From: Rhodobacter xanthinilyticus | GTDB taxonomy: Bacteria; Pseudomonadota; Alphaproteobacteria; Rhodobacterales; Rhodobacteraceae | DNA: 64,000 bases | Assembly (NCBI RefSeq): GCF_001856665.1 | Contig: NZ_CP017781.1 | Span: forward strand, 2,682,001-2,746,000 | Reading direction: 5' to 3' | In this document: piece after piece, positions 21,291 through 35,534 of the stretch | Position numbering within the stretch: position 1 is the stretch's first letter | How the letters are laid out: each line of letters starts with the position of its first letter | Made by a program: the position numbers and the translations under genes | Notes under the pieces: model-generated | Seen by the model: only the letters and a program-made list of their open reading frames with translations | The model's database searches: none | What the model was told of the DNA's origin: nothing

Positions 21291-21800
21291 TCAGGCCGCG
21301 CGGCCGATCAGAACCTCGTCCACGGCCTTCGCCGCGCCGGCCTCATCGGTGCCCGACACGGCCGCGACTTCGCGCGTCAGACGCTCGAGCGCCGCTTCAT
21401 AGAGTTGACGCTCGGAATAGCTCTGCTCGCGCTGATCATCGGCGCGGTGCAGGTCGCGCACCACCTCCGCGATCGAGAGCAGATCGCCCGAGTTGATCTT
21501 CTGTTCATATTCCTGGGCGCGGCGCGACCACATCGCGCGCTTCACCTTGGCCTTGCCCTTCAGCGTTTCGAGCGCTTTCGAGACGATCTCGGGCGAGCTC
21601 AGGCCGCGCATGCCGATATCGACCGCCTTGTGGGTGGGCACGCGCAGCGTCATCTTGTCCTTCTCGAAGGAGATGACGAACAGTTCGAGCCGCAGCCCGG
21701 CAATCTCCTGCTCCTCGATCGACATGATCTTGCCGACGCCATGAGCCGGATAGACGACGAAATCGTCCGGGCGAAACTCGGTTTTCTTGGTCTTGGTCAT
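21291..21800 (-). CDS. carD: CarD family transcription regulator
   Basis: A 169-residue RNA-polymerase-interacting protein of the CarD/CdnL family. The N-terminal RID domain is visible in DDFVVYPAHGVGKIMSIEEQ and LRVPTHKAVDIGMRGLS, and the C-terminal helical DNA-binding part in VKRAMWSRRAQEYEQKINSGD. CarD stabilises open complexes at many promoters in bacteria of this group. A good promoter (TTGAAA-16-TACATT) lies about 150 bases upstream, giving a long leader. It sits beside fdxA, S4 and helicase genes, all on the minus strand. Confidence 0.93.
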   Translation of the reverse strand: MTKTKKTEFRPDDFVVYPAHGVGKIMSIEEQEIAGLRLELFVISFEKDKMTLRVPTHKAVDIGMRGLSSPEIVSKALETLKGKAKVKRAMWSRRAQEYEQKINSGDLLSIAEVVRDLHRADDQREQSYSERQLYEAALERLTREVAAVSGTDEAGAAKAVDEVLIGRAA

Positions 21801-21951: not shown

Positions 21952-21979
21952 AATGTAGCATAAAATAAGGGCATTTCAA
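21952..21979 (-). promoter_or_regulatory. carD promoter
   Basis: On the minus strand, TTGAAA (21979-21974), a 16-base spacer and TACATT (21957-21952) give a near-consensus sigma-70 promoter. Transcription would begin near 21945, giving a leader of about 145 nt before carD. The surrounding 368-base gap (21801-22168) also holds the fdxA terminator and a DnaA-box palindrome; I see no gene in it. Confidence 0.65.
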
Positions 21980-27660: not shown

Positions 27661-28386
27661 TCAGATCTCGATCCGGCTGAACCCTTCGCGCAGCGCATCC
27701 GACCAGGCATGCGACATGCGGGTGAAATCCGGGTCTTCCTTCTGGATCCGGCGGCGCAGCGAGACCTTGCAGGCATCCTTCTCGATCACCGCGAAATCGA
27801 GCGGCATGCCCACCGAGAGGTTCGAGCGCAGGGTCGAATCCATCGATAGAAGCACCGCCTTGCGCGCCTCATCGAGCGAGGTCGCGGTCGTCACCACCCG
27901 GTCGAGGATCGGTTTGCCGTATTTGTGCTCGCCGATCTGCAGGTAAGGCGTGTCCTCGGTCGCCTCGATGAAATTGCCCTCCGGGTAGACGAGGAACATC
28001 CGCATCGCGCCGCCGCGGCGCTGGCCCGCGACGATCATCGAGGCCGAGGTCGAGACCTTCGAGGCCTCCATCCGCGCGTCGATATCCTGGCGCACATGGG
28101 CAAGCGTATTGCCGACGATCTCGGCGACCTTGAGCATCGAGGGCGCGAGCATGATCGAGGTCTCGCCCGAGGCGTCGCTGTCCTCGATCGCGTCGCGCAG
28201 CCGCGCGAGGGTGGTCTGCGTGACCGAAAGCGAGCCCGCGGTCAGGATCCCGATCACCCGCTCGCCCGGTTCCTCGAACAGGAACATCTTGCGATAGGTC
28301 GCGATATTGTCGAGCCCCGCATTCGTGCGCGTGTCGCTCAGAAGCACCATGCCCGCCTCGAGCAGCAAGCCAACGCAATAGGTCAT
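27661..28386 (-). CDS. Anbu, proteasome-like peptidase
   Basis: A 241-residue Ntn-hydrolase of the Anbu (ancestral beta subunit) family, related to HslV and the 20S proteasome. It begins MTYCVGLLLEAGMVLLSDTR; after Met removal Thr2 is the nucleophile, which is why the second of two adjacent ATG codons (28386) is preferred over 28389. SDTRTNAGLDNIATYRKMFLF and ILTAGSLSVTQT are further family signatures. GGGGGG precedes the start. It is the last gene of an operon with ATP-grasp, alpha-E and transglutaminase-like proteins, the known Anbu context. Confidence 0.9.
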   Translation of the reverse strand: MTYCVGLLLEAGMVLLSDTRTNAGLDNIATYRKMFLFEEPGERVIGILTAGSLSVTQTTLARLRDAIEDSDASGETSIMLAPSMLKVAEIVGNTLAHVRQDIDARMEASKVSTSASMIVAGQRRGGAMRMFLVYPEGNFIEATEDTPYLQIGEHKYGKPILDRVVTTATSLDEARKAVLLSMDSTLRSNLSVGMPLDFAVIEKDACKVSLRRRIQKEDPDFTRMSHAWSDALREGFSRIEI

Positions 28387-28418
28387 CATGTCCCCCCGGG
28401 GATTCGCCTCTCGGCCTT

Positions 28419-29231
28419 TTATTGCTGCACCGCTTCCAGAGCAACAACCACCTCGAGGCTCTCCTCGCCCAGCCCCTGCGCCACCCCGCGGATCGGCGCG
28501 GCCTCCCGCGCATCGAGCCCGGAGCCCAGCCGGATATAACGCCCGTCCGGGCAGCACTGGTTGGCCGCATCAAAGCCGATCCAGCCGATCGCGGGCACAT
28601 GCACCTCGGCCCAGGCGTGGGCCGCCTCATGCGGCGTGCCGTCCTCGGTCGCGTGCAGATAGCCCGAGACATAGCGCGCCGGCATCCCGACCGCGCGCGC
28701 CGCGGCGATGATCGCATGGGCATGGTCCTGACAGACCCCCTCGCCCAGCGCCAGCGCCTCGGCGGCGGTGGTATGGGCATGGGTCACGCCGGGTTTGTAG
28801 GCGATCGCCTCGGCCACCGCCCGCGCGATGCGATGCGCGCGCTCGAGATCATCCTCGGCGCCCACCACCGCCTCCTGGCCCAGCGCCTCGAGATCGGCGT
28901 CGATCCAGGTCGCGGTGGTCTCGCGCAGGTAAGCCATGGGCGAGACCAGCTCGCGATGACCGCGCAGCACGCCGGCCAGATCGGTCGTCTCGACCTGCCC
29001 CGCGACCGAGATCGTCACCTCCTCGACCGGGCCGCGCACCGACCAGCCCTCGATCCGGTCGCCCGCGCCGTCGCGGAAGCCCCCGCCCCGCACGCCGCCC
29101 TCGACCGAGACTTCCCAGGAGATCACCCGCTGGCCATCGAAACGCGAGGGGAACAGCCGCAGCGACTGCACCGCGGCGCGCATCGGCGCATCATATTGAT
29201 AGGTGGTGACGTGATTGACCGTCAGGATCAT
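28419..29231 (-). CDS. Transglutaminase-like cysteine protease
   Basis: A 270-residue protein of the bacterial transglutaminase-like superfamily, with an N-terminal beta region (YQYDAPMRAAVQSLRLFPS) and a catalytic domain. The triad is visible: Cys167 in GEGVCQDHAHAI, His205 in HEAAHAWAEV and Asp221 in WIGFDAANQ. It has no signal peptide and probably cuts or transfers peptides in the cytoplasm. Its start overlaps the alpha-E stop by four bases, so it is coupled to the operon. Confidence 0.9.
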   Translation of the reverse strand: MILTVNHVTTYQYDAPMRAAVQSLRLFPSRFDGQRVISWEVSVEGGVRGGGFRDGAGDRIEGWSVRGPVEEVTISVAGQVETTDLAGVLRGHRELVSPMAYLRETTATWIDADLEALGQEAVVGAEDDLERAHRIARAVAEAIAYKPGVTHAHTTAAEALALGEGVCQDHAHAIIAAARAVGMPARYVSGYLHATEDGTPHEAAHAWAEVHVPAIGWIGFDAANQCCPDGRYIRLGSGLDAREAAPIRGVAQGLGEESLEVVVALEAVQQ

Positions 29232-30181
29232 CGCGCGTCTCCGCTCAGATAAGCATTATGGACCATGTCGGAGAGCTCGCCCACCTCGCGGATGAACCGG
29301 GTGAGGAACTCATGCAGGCCCTCTTCAAAGATATCCTCGACACGCGTGTCGGAGAGCTCGCCCAGCAGCGCGCGCGCGCGCAGCTGCGCGGGGCCGGTCT
29401 TGCCGTAATCCTTCGCGAGCGCGTCGAGATGGTCCTTGGTCGTCTCGAGCGCCGAGATCAGCGCGCGCGGGCTTTGCCGGTTCAGGATCAGGAAATGCGC
29501 GATCTTCGCCGCGGTGATGTCGCCGCCATAGGCCCAGTGGAAGGCCCGCAGCGCCGAGAACGCGCGCAGAAGCGTCTGCCATTGGTAATTGTCGAGGCCG
29601 GAGCCGACGAAATCCACCGAGGGCAGCAGCACGAAATATTTGACGTCGATCAGCCGCGCGGTGTTGTCGGCGCGTTCGAGCGAGAAGCCGAGGTTGAGGA
29701 AGCTGTAGCCGTCGTTGCGCAGAAGCGTCGCATCCATCGCGCCGCGGATCGAGGCGGCCTGATGGTTGACCCATTCGGTCAGCTCGGTCAGCTCGAGCTC
29801 GGAGCGCGGCTTGCGCTCGAGCTTGCGCATCTCCTGAAAGGCGGAGTTGAGCGCATCCCAGACCTGCGCGGTGAGCGCGGTGCGCACGATGCGCGCATTT
29901 TCCCTCGCCCGCTCCAGACAGCTCACCACCGAGCTCGGGTTGTCGCGATCGAAGAACAGGTAGCTCTCGATATTGCGCTGCACCGGGTCGCCATATTTGC
30001 TGGCAAAGCCTTCCGCCGTGCCCGAGGCCTGCAACAGGCTCTCCCATTCCGAGCGGTAGCCATGTCCCGCCGAGGGCATCAGCGCGATCCGCGCCCCCAC
30101 CTCGAGCAAGCGCGCCATGGTCTCGGCGCGCTCGATATAGCGCCCGATCCAGAACAGGTTCTCCGCGGTCCGGCTCAGCAT
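29228..30181 (-). CDS. Alpha-E domain protein (DUF403)
   Basis: A 317-residue all-helical protein of the alpha-E family, with the standard start MLSRTAENLFWIGRYIERAE and FSLERADNTARLIDVKYF. It is regularly found beside permuted ATP-grasp enzymes and is thought to assist them; no activity is proven. The start at 30181 is chosen because GGAGGGG lies just upstream and families start at MLSRTAE. The transglutaminase gene overlaps it by four bases. Confidence 0.92.
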   Translation of the reverse strand: MLSRTAENLFWIGRYIERAETMARLLEVGARIALMPSAGHGYRSEWESLLQASGTAEGFASKYGDPVQRNIESYLFFDRDNPSSVVSCLERARENARIVRTALTAQVWDALNSAFQEMRKLERKPRSELELTELTEWVNHQAASIRGAMDATLLRNDGYSFLNLGFSLERADNTARLIDVKYFVLLPSVDFVGSGLDNYQWQTLLRAFSALRAFHWAYGGDITAAKIAHFLILNRQSPRALISALETTKDHLDALAKDYGKTGPAQLRARALLGELSDTRVEDIFEEGLHEFLTRFIREVGELSDMVHNAYLSGDAR

Positions 30182-30239
30182 CCCGCCCCTCCGATGAAAA
30201 TGGATCTTGTGGCTTGCGAAACGATCCTTGGGCATCGCC

Positions 30240-31655
30240 TCACTCCGCCAGAACCCAGGTGTCCTTCACGCCGCCGCCCTGCGAGGAGTTCACGACGAGC
30301 GAGCCCTCCTTCAGCGCGACCCGCGTGAGCCCGCCCGGCACCAGCTCGATCTTCTCGCCCACGAGGCAATAGGGCCGGAGATCGACATGGCGCGGCGCGA
30401 TCCCCTCCTCGACGAAGGTCGGCGTGGTCGAGAGCGCGAGCGTCGGCTGCGCGATGTAATTCTGCGGGTCTTCGGTGATCTTGATGCGGAAGGTCTCGAT
30501 CTGGTCCTTGGTCGATTTCGGCCCGACGAGCATGCCGTAACCGCCCGAGCCATGGACCTCTTTCACGACGAGGTCTCCAAGGTTTTCAAGCACATACTTG
30601 CATTCGTCGGGCTTGGCGCATTGCCAGGTCGGCACGTTTTGCAAGATCGGCTCCTCGCCGAGATAGAAGCGGATCATCTCCGGCACGAAGGTGTAGACCG
30701 CCTTGTCATCGGCCACGCCCGCGCCCGGCGCCGAGCAGATCGACACGCCGCCCGAGCGGTAGACATCCATCAGCCCCGGCACGCCGAGCATGCTGTCGGG
30801 GCGGAAGCACAGCGGGTCGAGGAAGCTGTCGTCGATGCGCCGATAGATCACGTCGAGCTTCTTCGGCCCCTCGGTGGTGCGCATCCAGACAAAGCCGCCC
30901 TCGACGAAGAGATCGGCGCCCTCGACGAGCTCGACCCCCATCAGATCCGCGAGGAAGCTGTGCTCGTAATAGGCCGAGTTGAAATGGCCGGGCGTCAGGA
31001 TCGCCACCGTGGGCTCGCGGTCGCAGCGCGCCGGCGCCACGCTTGCGAGCGTGCGGCGCAGCGCATCGGCATAGCCGTCGACCGGCTCGATGCGGTTCTC
31101 GCGGAACAGGTTGGGGAACATCCGCATCATGATCTCGCGGTTCTCCAGCATGTAGGAGACCCCCGACGGCGTGCGGCAATTGTCCTCGAGCACGAAGAAT
31201 TCATCGGGCCCGGTGCGCACCAGATCAATGCCGACGATATGCGAATAAATCCCGCGCGGCGGGGTGAAGCCGACCACGGCGCGCTCGAAGGCCTCGTTCT
31301 GATAGACGAGTTTCGCCGGGATCTTGCCCGCGCGGACGATCTCGCCGCGGCCATAGACATCGAGCAGGAAGGCGTTGAGCGCACGGGCGCGCTGCTTGAT
31401 GCCGCGCTCGAGCCGGCGCCATTCGAACTGGGTGAAGACGCGCGGGAACATGTCGAAAGGGATCAGCCGATCCGGGTCGCCGCCCTCGCCATAGACCGCG
31501 AAAGTGATGCCGATGCGCCGGAACAGCGCCTCCGCCTCGGCCTGTTTCATCTGGCGCAATTCGGCGGGCATCGCGTTGGTCCAATCCTCGAGCCGGGCAT
31601 AGGGCTCGCGGACGTGACCGTTGTCGTACATTTCGTTGAAATAGGTGGTGCTCAT
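30240..31655 (-). CDS. Circularly permuted ATP-grasp type 2 ligase
   Basis: A 471-residue permuted ATP-grasp protein (DUF404/407). It opens YFNEMYDNGHVREPYARLEDW and contains FVLEDNCRTPSGVSYMLENRE, the hallmark of these amidoligases, and a C-terminal KEVHGSGGYGMLVGP nucleotide loop. Such enzymes are predicted to form peptide or peptide-like amide bonds. It is the first gene of the operon (ligase, alpha-E, transglutaminase-like, Anbu). The substrate is unknown. Confidence 0.92.
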   Translation of the reverse strand: MSTTYFNEMYDNGHVREPYARLEDWTNAMPAELRQMKQAEAEALFRRIGITFAVYGEGGDPDRLIPFDMFPRVFTQFEWRRLERGIKQRARALNAFLLDVYGRGEIVRAGKIPAKLVYQNEAFERAVVGFTPPRGIYSHIVGIDLVRTGPDEFFVLEDNCRTPSGVSYMLENREIMMRMFPNLFRENRIEPVDGYADALRRTLASVAPARCDREPTVAILTPGHFNSAYYEHSFLADLMGVELVEGADLFVEGGFVWMRTTEGPKKLDVIYRRIDDSFLDPLCFRPDSMLGVPGLMDVYRSGGVSICSAPGAGVADDKAVYTFVPEMIRFYLGEEPILQNVPTWQCAKPDECKYVLENLGDLVVKEVHGSGGYGMLVGPKSTKDQIETFRIKITEDPQNYIAQPTLALSTTPTFVEEGIAPRHVDLRPYCLVGEKIELVPGGLTRVALKEGSLVVNSSQGGGVKDTWVLAE

Positions 31656-31747
31656 CGGGCGTTGATTCCTCCGGCCTTGCCCTCAGATTAGGCAGCCCCT
31701 CGGGCGAGCGGAAGCTATGCCCCGCGCTTGCCCGGTGCCGACCCGTC

Positions 31748-31788
31748 AAAAACGCCCAAAACCGTGCATATCGCCTAATTTTTGGGCG
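31748..31788 (-). terminator. marR terminator
   Basis: CGCCCAAAA (31788-31780) and TTTTGGGCG (31761-31753) on the minus strand form a 9-bp stem with an 18-base loop, followed by TTTTT. It ends the MarR transcript before the ATP-grasp operon. The loop is long, so it could also serve as an operator of the operon. Confidence 0.65.
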
Positions 31789-31797
31789 GCAATTGAG

Positions 31798-32858: not shown

Positions 32859-34682
32859 ATGACGTTTCCCCTGCCCCGCCCCGTTCTCGACGCCGAAGCC
32901 GGCTCTGGCCCTGGCGCCTTCGGCACCCTGCCCGATTGGGATCTGAGCGACCTCTACACCGCCCCCGACGCGCCCGAATATGCCGCCGACATGGCCTGGC
33001 TCGAGACCGAATGCGCGGCCTTCGCGGCCGCTTACGAGGGCAAGCTCGCCGGCCTCGACGCGCCGGCGATGGCCGAGTGCATCCGCCGCTACGAGGCGAT
33101 CGAGACCACCGCCGGGCGGATCATGTCTTACGCGGGCCTGCGCTATTACCAGAACACCGTCGACGCCACCCGCGCCAAGCTGATGGCCGATGCGCAGGAC
33201 CGGATCACCACCTTCACCACGCCGCTCGTGTTCTTCTCGCTCGAGTTCAACCGCATCGACGACGCGCGCTATGAGGCGGTCTTCGCCGATCCGGCGCTGG
33301 CCCGCTACAAGCCCGTCTTCGACCGGATGCGCGCGATGAAACCCTATCAGCTCTCCGACGAGCTGGAGAAATTCCTGCACGATCAATCGGTTGTCGGCGC
33401 CGCCGCCTGGAACCGGCTGTTTGACGAAACCACCGCCGGGCTCGAATTCACCATCGACGGCGAGGTGATGAGCCTCGAAGCGGCGACCACGCTCCTCTCC
33501 GACCACGACCGCGCCAAACGCGAGGCCGCGGCCCATGAGCTCGCCCGCGTCTTCACCGCCCACCTCAAGATCTTCTCGCGCGTGCACAATTCGCTCGCCA
33601 AGGAAAAGGAGATCGAGGACCGCTGGCGCAAGATGCCGACCCCGCAGACCGCGCGCCACCTCTCCAACGATGTCGAGCCCGAGGTCGTCGCGGCGCTGCG
33701 CGATGCGGTCGTGGCGGCCTATCCGCGCCTCTCGCACCGCTATTATGCGCTCAAAGCGCGCTGGCTCGGGCTCGAGAAGCTGCAGATCTGGGATCGCAAC
33801 GCGCCGCTGCCGACCGAGGCGCCGCGCACGATCAAATGGGATGAGGCGCAGGCGACCGTGATGGGCGCCTATGCCGCCTTCGCCCCCGAGATGGCCGAGA
33901 TCGCGCGGCCGTTCTTCGAGAAGGGCTGGATCGACGCGGGGGTGAAGCCCGGCAAGGCGCCCGGCGCCTTCGCCCACCCGACGGTCACCACCGTGCACCC
34001 CTATGTGATGCTGAATTACCTCGGCAAGCCGCGCGATGTGATGACGCTCGCCCATGAGCTCGGCCATGGCGTGCACCAGGTTCTGGCCGCGGGCCAGGGC
34101 GAGATGCTGAGCCAGACGCCGCTGACGCTCGCCGAAACCGCCTCGGTCTTCGGCGAGATGCTGACCTTCCGCGCGCTCCTCGACGCCGCCAAGACCCCGG
34201 CCGAGCGCAAGGCGCTGCTCGCCGGCAAGGTCGAGGACATGATCAACACCGTCGTGCGCCAGATCGCGTTCTACGATTTCGAGTGCAAGCTCCATGCCGC
34301 GCGCGCGTCGGGCGAGCTGACGCCCGAGGATATCAATGCGCTGTGGATGTCGGTGCAGGCCGAGAGCCTGGGGCCGGCGTTCGAGTTCATGCCGGGCTAC
34401 GAGACCTTCTGGGCCTATATCCCGCATTTCGTCCACTCGCCCTTCTATGTCTACGCCTATGCCTTCGGCGACGGGCTGGTGAACGCGCTTTACGCGGCCT
34501 ATGCGGGCGGCCTGCCGGAGTTTCAGGCGAAATATTTCGACATGCTGAAGGCGGGCGGCTCGAAACACCACAAGGAGCTGCTCGCGCCTTTCGGGCTCGA
34601 TGCCTCCGACCCGGCGTTTTGGCAAAAGGGCCTCGACATGATCGCGGGCTTCATCGACGAGCTCGAGGCGATGGAGGCCTGA
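32859..34682 (+). CDS. M3 family oligoendopeptidase F
   Basis: A 607-residue zinc metallopeptidase that degrades short peptides in the cytoplasm. The zinc motif is LAHELGHGVHQ, with the third ligand Glu in AETASVFGEMLTF. GVKPGKAPGAF and YVYAYAFGDGLVNALY are further M3B signatures. The length is normal. Transcription ends at a strong bidirectional terminator a few bases downstream. Confidence 0.93.
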   Translation: MTFPLPRPVLDAEAGSGPGAFGTLPDWDLSDLYTAPDAPEYAADMAWLETECAAFAAAYEGKLAGLDAPAMAECIRRYEAIETTAGRIMSYAGLRYYQNTVDATRAKLMADAQDRITTFTTPLVFFSLEFNRIDDARYEAVFADPALARYKPVFDRMRAMKPYQLSDELEKFLHDQSVVGAAAWNRLFDETTAGLEFTIDGEVMSLEAATTLLSDHDRAKREAAAHELARVFTAHLKIFSRVHNSLAKEKEIEDRWRKMPTPQTARHLSNDVEPEVVAALRDAVVAAYPRLSHRYYALKARWLGLEKLQIWDRNAPLPTEAPRTIKWDEAQATVMGAYAAFAPEMAEIARPFFEKGWIDAGVKPGKAPGAFAHPTVTTVHPYVMLNYLGKPRDVMTLAHELGHGVHQVLAAGQGEMLSQTPLTLAETASVFGEMLTFRALLDAAKTPAERKALLAGKVEDMINTVVRQIAFYDFECKLHAARASGELTPEDINALWMSVQAESLGPAFEFMPGYETFWAYIPHFVHSPFYVYAYAFGDGLVNALYAAYAGGLPEFQAKYFDMLKAGGSKHHKELLAPFGLDASDPAFWQKGLDMIAGFIDELEAMEA

Positions 34683-34724: not shown

Positions 34725-35534
34725 TCAGTCCCAGAGGCTTTCCACCTCGAACCGGGTGAGCCTCGGGTGCAGCGGCGGGCCAAAGTCGCGCAGGCTCTCG
34801 ATCTGGGGGAAGAGCGCGCCGAAGAGGCTGAGCATCCGCGGCTCGACCATCTCCGCGAGCCCCTCGCCCGGGTGGTAGCTCTCCACCTCGAGCCCGGCCA
34901 CGCGCAGGCTGCCCTGCCGGGCGAGCACGACATGATAGACCGTGACCGGCGCGACGGGGGTGACCTCGATCACCGAAACCCCGTCGATGAAGGCGCGGGC
35001 GGGCACATAGGCCGCCTCGAGCCCCGTCGCCCGGCGCAGCCGCGCATCGCGCAGACAGATCCGCGCCCGCGCCCCGAGCAGAAGGTCGGGGCTCGGCCGC
35101 CCAACGCCGAGCGCATCCGAGGTGATCCGCGTCAGGCTGACGGCCTCGCCCTCCTCGGCGCCCGCGCCGGGGTAGAGCATCATCGAGCCGATCCAGGTGA
35201 TCGTCTCGACCCGCCCCTCGGCGGTGAGCGCGCGCATCCCCGGCACGAGGTCTTCGACCGCGACGGGGCCCTCCTCGGTGGCGACAACCGCGCCCCGGGC
35301 AAGCGCCGAGAACGCCTCCTCGAAGAGGGGTGTGGCCGGCGCCAGACGGGTGGAATTCTCGATCAATCCGTTGGGGGTGAGCCAGGCGGCCTCGTAACGG
35401 CGCGTCAGAGGCATCGCGCGCAGAGGCCGCCGGTCAGAACCCAGCGTGGCCCGTGGAAGTTGGGCCGGAACAGATACAACTTTCCCCGCTTCGGGCTGCG
35501 AGAGCCCAGCCGCGGAGCGGTGAGGAAACGACAT
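34725..35534 (-). CDS. Hint-domain protein
   Basis: A 269-residue protein with a Hedgehog/intein (Hint_2) domain: GAVVATEEGPVAVEDLVPGMRALTAEGRVETITWIG, then LLLGARARICLRD, and VYHVVLARQGSLRVAGLEVESYHPG. Such Rhodobacteraceae proteins are often annotated as Hint domain proteins with unknown targets. The splice-type N-terminal Cys/Ser is not evident; Gly-Ala precedes VVATEEG, so self-cleavage is doubtful. An upstream promoter lies at 35599-35627. Confidence 0.82.
   Translation of the reverse strand: MSFPHRSAAGLSQPEAGKVVSVPAQLPRATLGSDRRPLRAMPLTRRYEAAWLTPNGLIENSTRLAPATPLFEEAFSALARGAVVATEEGPVAVEDLVPGMRALTAEGRVETITWIGSMMLYPGAGAEEGEAVSLTRITSDALGVGRPSPDLLLGARARICLRDARLRRATGLEAAYVPARAFIDGVSVIEVTPVAPVTVYHVVLARQGSLRVAGLEVESYHPGEGLAEMVEPRMLSLFGALFPQIESLRDFGPPLHPRLTRFEVESLWD

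Follow-up and report, generated by a model that had tools for sequence, protein, structure and literature searches.

A stretch of 64,000 nucleotides from Rhodobacter xanthinilyticus (contig NZ_CP017781.1, positions 2,682,001 to 2,746,000; hereafter the window) contains, at 27661–31655, an Anbu operon of four minus-strand genes for a circularly permuted ATP-grasp ligase (AG), its all-helical partner alpha-E, a transglutaminase-fold Cys enzyme and Anbu, a proteasome-like Thr hydrolase. Our analysis reveals that this operon is preceded by a predicted NtrC-like palindromic operator at 31771–31789, 116–134 base pairs (bp) before the AG start, and that it shares this putative control site with the P-II genes, which are classical NtrC targets. 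Nitrogen control of the AG operon is very likely; judged from the sequence, NtrC is the probable binder and activation the probable direction. On balance, we lean towards a nitrogen-limitation module in which AG and alpha-E would make amide bonds that the Cys and Thr hydrolases would cut. The four-gene system and its nitrogen induction in Pseudomonas putida were known before, and the operator control is new here. Both the upstream operator and a second operon of the same genome are additions beyond an earlier note on this DNA (the original prediction).

The operator scores 21.9 bits with a palindromic matrix trained on the AG upstream regions of 22 near relatives, from which the window was excluded; two of the 22 (one of them L101) are not named to Rhodobacterales or were chosen by Anbu identity alone. 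In most of these training relatives the palindrome lies about 100–145 bp ahead of AG, and two loci (L106 and L112) fall below 10 bits even within the training set. A possible second operator at 31677–31695 (13.0 bits; neither site is assigned a strand) is weak taken alone. The same matrix was applied to the 220 bp upstream of P-II genes at 31 loci, comprising one gene from each of 29 genomes of the family and both genes of the R. xanthinilyticus genome. With thresholds chosen after a first look, the operator is found at 28 of the 31 loci at ≥ 10 bits and at 26 of 31 at ≥ 15 bits, and both P-II genes of R. xanthinilyticus carry it. For the P-II scoring that gave 27 of 31, shuffled upstream regions would be expected to yield 0.53 loci, and column-permuted matrices yielded a mean of 0.70 and at most 6. 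In 427 kb of background sequence, one site of ≥ 15 bits occurs.

A simple form of the pattern, allowing at most one mismatch, gives 30 strand matches at 23 distinct places in the 3.78-Mb genome, among them one in the window and one ahead of each of the two P-II genes. Since a reversed-pattern control gives 29 strand matches, the evidence lies in the placement of the sites and not in their number. Other sites of ≥ 13 bits in the window are located at 1725, inside the open reading frame (ORF) 1622–1933, and at 21956. The latter, at 13.2 bits, stands upstream of the minus-strand ORF 21291–21800, which we take to encode a CarD-like protein. The literature searched, on Anbu with nitrogen, NtrC and transglutaminase and with relevance judged by title or abstract, yielded no account of such wide operator conservation.

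The promoter class agrees with the type of NtrC present. Caulobacter NtrC binds the glnBA and glnK promoters, Rhodobacterales NtrC is described as being without the GAFTGA loop, and R. capsulatus NtrC is reported to work via sigma70 (PMC10274813). The NtrC of the R. xanthinilyticus genome, a protein identified by sequence and by an NtrB-like gene beside it, is also without GAFTGA, in agreement with the lack of sigma54 sites upstream of AG in Rhodobacterales. With the sigma54 consensus and its weights, like the NtrC consensus, taken from general knowledge, we rejected a sigma54 promoter ahead of AG for this clade, as none of 23 Rhodobacterales upstream regions reaches 13 and the best score in the window is 11.7. 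Beyond the window, 89 other AG upstream regions carry a sigma54 –24/–12 element in 44 cases, an NtrC-like palindrome in 29 and either of the two in 62; random windows from the same loci carry either site in 4.4% of 1283 cases. Within a distant Rhodobacterales Anbu type, 43–50% identical to that of the window, the palindrome is present at L034, L036, L037, L148 and L172 and below threshold at L035 (8.8) and the Marinibacterium locus L124 (7.6).

Nitrogen control of Anbu itself was considered and rejected, with a site at only 1 of 16 stand-alone Anbu genes (17 in all, one being cut by a contig end) and at 1 of 91 Anbu genes inside full operons. Two AG–alpha-E pairs located away from Anbu retain a sigma54 element (L088, 13.7; L089, 14.7). 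Because the stand-alone Anbu genes are without a site, nitrogen control appears to go with the ligase pair.

Published data on related operons point in the same direction. In P. putida grown on nitrate versus ammonium, PP_2685 (proteasome beta subunit) and PP_2688 (permuted ATP-grasp) are reported to rise by 4.44 and 3.99 log2 units, respectively (PMC8050072), and nitrogen induction of the P. putida Anbu operon is also cited in PMC6376114. A Burkholderia cenocepacia cluster of DUF404/407, DUF403 and transglutaminase genes is described as NtrC- and sigma54-dependent (PMC5491218). In addition, COG3484 is placed within a predicted sigma54 regulon (PMC12316311), and a correlation of domains of this type with urea metabolism is reported from marine metagenomes (PMC3597751).

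The four genes themselves are assigned with confidence by profile and structure-database matches. AG (30240–31655, minus strand, 471 residues) matches PF14403 (E = 1e-164) and PF04174, as well as the PDB entry 3n6x by sequence (E = 5e-191), and the window copy keeps all residues that are invariant in 48 relatives, indicating an intact ATP-grasp site. alpha-E (29228–30181, minus strand, 317 residues) belongs to PF04168 (E = 9e-93); its ORF opens at 30235, and the Pfam match begins at residue 1 counted from the ATG at 30181. The transglutaminase-fold protein (28419–29231, minus strand, 270 residues) matches PF01841 (E = 2e-25) and the bacterial N-terminal domain PF08379. Its triad C167/H205/D221 is present, and in an alignment of 52 relatives C167 is kept in at least 90%, with H205 and D221 invariant. 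Anbu (27661–28386, minus strand) matches PF00227 weakly (E = 1e-5) and five distinct PDB sequences of solved Anbu proteins, the best at E = 1.6e-75. It starts with Met-Thr and has no propeptide, in keeping with what is described for other Anbu proteins (PMC5666114), so that removal of Met exposes Thr1; Asp17 and Lys32 are also present in the mature protein. Thr1 of Pa-Anbu is reported to be modified by epoxomicin (PMC5666114), and split-ring or lock-washer assemblies have been published for Anbu relatives (PMC5666114, PMC6376114). NCBIfam gave zero matches for all four proteins. A PF00227 search of the R. xanthinilyticus genome returned a single match, G000:C1:77115-77630, presumably HslV, and missed the weakly matching Anbu. 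At another locus (L066:8060-8788), Anbu starts with Met-Ser in place of Met-Thr, and a Ser nucleophile is possible there.

The genes are closely packed, with 142 bp ahead of AG, 58 bp between AG and alpha-E, a 4-bp overlap of the alpha-E and transglutaminase genes, 32 bp between the latter and Anbu, and 7 bp between Anbu and a convergent hydrolase gene. The original prediction of four close or overlapping minus-strand genes is thus borne out, as are its naming of a permuted ATP-grasp enzyme, a helical partner, a transglutaminase-like protein with an intact Cys167/His205/Asp221 triad and a proteasome relative, and its remark that the system was already known. Farther out in the window, beyond an M3 oligopeptidase gene at 32859–34682, a minus-strand gene at 34725–35534 encodes a 269-residue Hint_2-domain protein.

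The distribution of the genes was examined in a sample of 200 genomes of the phylum. Anbu occurs in 69 of the 200 and alpha-E in 112; AG is matched in 116 at E ≤ 0.001 and in 113 above the curated cut-off. Four weak AG matches (G021, G121, G152 and G180; E from 1e-7 to 2e-4) fall in genomes without alpha-E, and once they are set aside AG and alpha-E occupy the identical 112 genomes. Anbu is present in 68 of these and absent from 44, and 68 of the 69 Anbu genomes have alpha-E (Fisher p = 6e-22, shared descent being ignored). The coincidence of the AG and alpha-E sets identifies the pair as the core and Anbu as an addition. The sole Anbu genome among the 69 with neither an AG nor an alpha-E match is that of L076 (G094).

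For gene order, 140 loci were examined, three of them without Anbu. The conserved order in close relatives, which the original prediction had named as its own refutation test, is found: AG>alpha-E>transglutaminase>Anbu is exact at 22 of the 26 loci closest to the window (L093–L119 without L118) and at 91 of the 137 Anbu loci overall. Two of the four exceptions are truncated where their contigs end (L099, L100), and the other two, L096 and L108, have Anbu alone. These latter loci belong to near relatives, and the roughly 20 kb fetched around each contains no AG or alpha-E, the search having been confined to that interval. The closest named Anbu loci are from uncultured Defluviimonas (80% identity), Thioclava and Pseudorhodobacter, with 87% in a genome of the same genus; identity to most other lineages is 50% or less. 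Within the family, Anbu identities fall into two groups, with 27 genomes at ≥ 67% (one a fragment, and R. xanthinilyticus included) and 42 at 43–56%, a split of the sequences that suggests two lineages or transfer. When the 11,841 ORFs of the 137 Anbu loci were compared all against all by BLAST, no recurrent family stood out as an obvious fifth partner among the 60 largest clusters, which were read by size, strand and position. This is not proof that there is none, as many clusters resemble antisense shadows or clade synteny and cluster 4 (28 loci, both strands) is unannotated.

A second operon of the same genome, identified by domain matches and gene order, lies about 0.9 Mb from the window operon at C1:1810126-1816890 (L087:7126-13890). 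It encodes, in order, a 1146-residue protein that joins a transglutaminase to DUF2126 ('putative amidoligase'), an AG–alpha-E fusion and another transglutaminase-like protein. Its predicted operator (18.1 bits) is 106–124 bp ahead of the first gene, a spacing near that of the window operon. Of the 114 near-invariant positions of 48 stand-alone AGs, a set of 21 fused copies retains 43 and has lost 37. The losses include E157, N159, R161, D316, D317, K318, K365, the GGYG loop, H423, D425 and N456. With these catalytic residues gone, the ATP-grasp part of the fusion is probably dead. At least 36 fused copies were found among the matches listed, every one in a genome that also has a stand-alone AG; both systems and Anbu occur together within one locus at L062–L064, L078, L083, L091 and L092.

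Structure prediction adds information on the ligase pair. The alpha-E model is all-helical, with a predicted local distance difference test (pLDDT) score of 92 and a predicted template-modelling (pTM) score of 0.91; Foldseek found no relatives at E ≤ 0.001 and a profile search of PDB sequences none at E ≤ 5. alpha-E has 40 invariant or nearly invariant residues, including 15 charged ones (11 Arg) and four Trp, and these conserved charged and Trp side chains suggest a polar ligand or partner site. The fusion model (pLDDT 87.6, pTM 0.85) has scores in line with a defined arrangement of its AG and alpha-E parts. Its fold neighbours are headed by 3n6x, followed by glutathione and homoglutathione synthetases, YgiC, glutathionylspermidine synthetase and trypanothione synthetase. 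By sequence, a profile search of the PDB with AG finds only 3n6x, a putative enzyme, as significant, and no characterised synthetase.

In the nitrogen-limitation reading, a shortage of nitrogen would lead the GAFTGA-less NtrC, working with the housekeeping polymerase, to bind the palindrome at 31771–31789 and to switch on all four genes of the operon at once. AG with alpha-E would use ATP to activate a carboxylate and join it to an amine by glutathione-synthetase-type chemistry, and the two hydrolases, the Cys enzyme and Anbu with its Thr1, would cleave amide bonds in the products or in modified targets, the net effect being that amino nitrogen is moved or recovered. We infer this chemistry, the nature of the substrate (a cytosolic peptide, protein or amine) and the sharing of one substrate by ligase and hydrolases; an AG from an Anbu operon is reported to release phosphate from ATP (PMC6376114). 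Of the substrate and the role, both called unknown in the original prediction, the role is narrowed, with the predicted control site placing the operon in the nitrogen response, in agreement with the P. putida induction described in PMC8050072.

Several observations weigh against this reading. Neither kind of site is present in 27 of the 89 other AG upstream regions, and three P-II loci remain below 10 bits. Related loci were counted one by one and are not independent, so that the operator and promoter counts overstate the number of independent events. The stand-alone genes indicate that Anbu is not itself tied to nitrogen. A nitrogen site as a general rule for the second operon was rejected with partial support, since 6 of 26 upstream regions have an NtrC-like site of ≥ 13 and 2 of 26 a sigma54 site of ≥ 13 (R. 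xanthinilyticus counted, some starts being uncertain and some regions being shared with a divergent AG). Furthermore, the assays described in PMC5666114 and PMC6376114 detected neither cleavage of peptides by Anbu nor a stable complex of operon proteins, and Fuchs and co-workers favour protein degradation over peptide synthesis (PMC5666114). These published Anbu assays are described as relying on standard proteasome substrates (PMC5666114, PMC6376114).

We tentatively consider an extension in which the two operons, both under putative NtrC control, form one nitrogen-starvation conjugation system. The window operon, with its active AG, alpha-E, transglutaminase-fold protein and Anbu, would be the writer and cutter; the second operon would add the transglutaminase–amidoligase fusion and a second transglutaminase-fold protein, and its probably dead AG–alpha-E fusion might act as a receptor presenting the conjugate. 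Across Proteobacteria the ligase pair would then have kept its nitrogen control, with the promoter class changed from sigma54 to the GAFTGA-less NtrC type.

Among the alternatives, synthesis of a small molecule or short peptide has some claim and is, in our estimate, doubtful. Here AG and alpha-E would make a glutathione-like peptide or a peptide–amine conjugate as a store or carrier of nitrogen, to be mobilised by the hydrolases. The fused AG–alpha-E model is nearest to folds of glutathione-type synthetases, AG and alpha-E form the invariable core, and the control is of the nitrogen type. However, the closest folds other than 3n6x are only 9–13% identical, and a Thr hydrolase built as a ring or washer, as in the structures of PMC5666114 and PMC6376114, is not what one would usually expect for a small molecule.

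Tag-and-degrade salvage, somewhat less probable still, would have AG tag proteins, Anbu degrade them and the transglutaminase-fold protein remove the tag, as a functional counterpart of the mycobacterial Pup–proteasome route in nitrogen starvation. It draws on the proteasome-like character and active Thr1 of Anbu, on the nitrogen operator of the window operon, and on the report that Mycobacterium smegmatis without the pup and proteasome genes grows worse when nitrogen is limited (PMC8223512). Against it, the gaps of 142, 58, 32 and 7 bp leave no room for an unlisted tag gene inside the operon, and searches of the R. xanthinilyticus genome for Pup and PafA found neither, with the control search matching in Corynebacterium glutamicum. 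In addition, no unfoldase was seen among the recurrent neighbours, whose clusters were read in part, and 44 of the 112 genomes with the ligase pair do without Anbu. The make-and-destroy cycle for a peptide tag put forward in the original prediction finds no support in the operon spacing or in the Pup and PafA searches, a tag encoded elsewhere being possible.

Finally, we consider it improbable that the palindrome belongs to a different regulator, or reflects a general property of promoters or terminators, with the operon outside the nitrogen response in this clade: the simple pattern is as frequent as its reversed control, some copies resemble terminators and NtrC binding is a prediction, but the operator stands ahead of the P-II genes at most loci, sigma54 sites replace the palindrome in other lineages, and NtrC or nitrogen control of relatives has been published (PMC8050072, PMC5491218).

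Anbu is considered to stand near the proteasome's origin. On the nitrogen-limitation reading, the conserved nitrogen operator tells under which growth condition, with which regulator and around which minimal core (AG and alpha-E) the substrate can be sought, and the second operon, with its probably dead ligase copy, points to where partners may be found. Together, the operator and the pseudo-ligase operon make the function of the operon, a long-standing question, directly testable.

Comparison with known systems places the window operon among several related arrangements. The actinobacterial Pup–proteasome system likewise ties a ligase and a proteasome-type hydrolase to nitrogen starvation (PMC8223512), in contrast to which the R. 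xanthinilyticus genome is without Pup and PafA. Glutathione synthetases and glutathionylspermidine synthetase/amidase have a related ATP-grasp fold, seen via the fused paralogue only, and glutathionylspermidine synthetase likewise joins and cuts one amide bond; these enzymes differ in having no significant sequence relation to AG, which matches only 3n6x. The second operon shares with the window operon homologous AG, alpha-E and transglutaminase domains and predicted nitrogen control, whereas it has lost ATP-grasp residues, carries a predicted amidoligase of another type and contains no Anbu here. The B. cenocepacia genes I35_5080-83, reported to be nitrogen-controlled too (PMC5491218), are probably related to this second type, because their transglutaminase protein is large. 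The closest match is with the published Anbu operons of Pseudomonas, Yersinia and Hyphomicrobium (Iyer 2009 and Valas and Bourne 2008, as cited; Fuchs 2017, PMC5666114; Piasecka 2018, PMC6376114), which share the four genes, their order, the Pfam families, Thr1 without a propeptide and, in P. putida, nitrogen induction. Unlike these, the window operon has a predicted NtrC-type operator without a sigma54 promoter and is linked, through that operator, to another operon of the genome.

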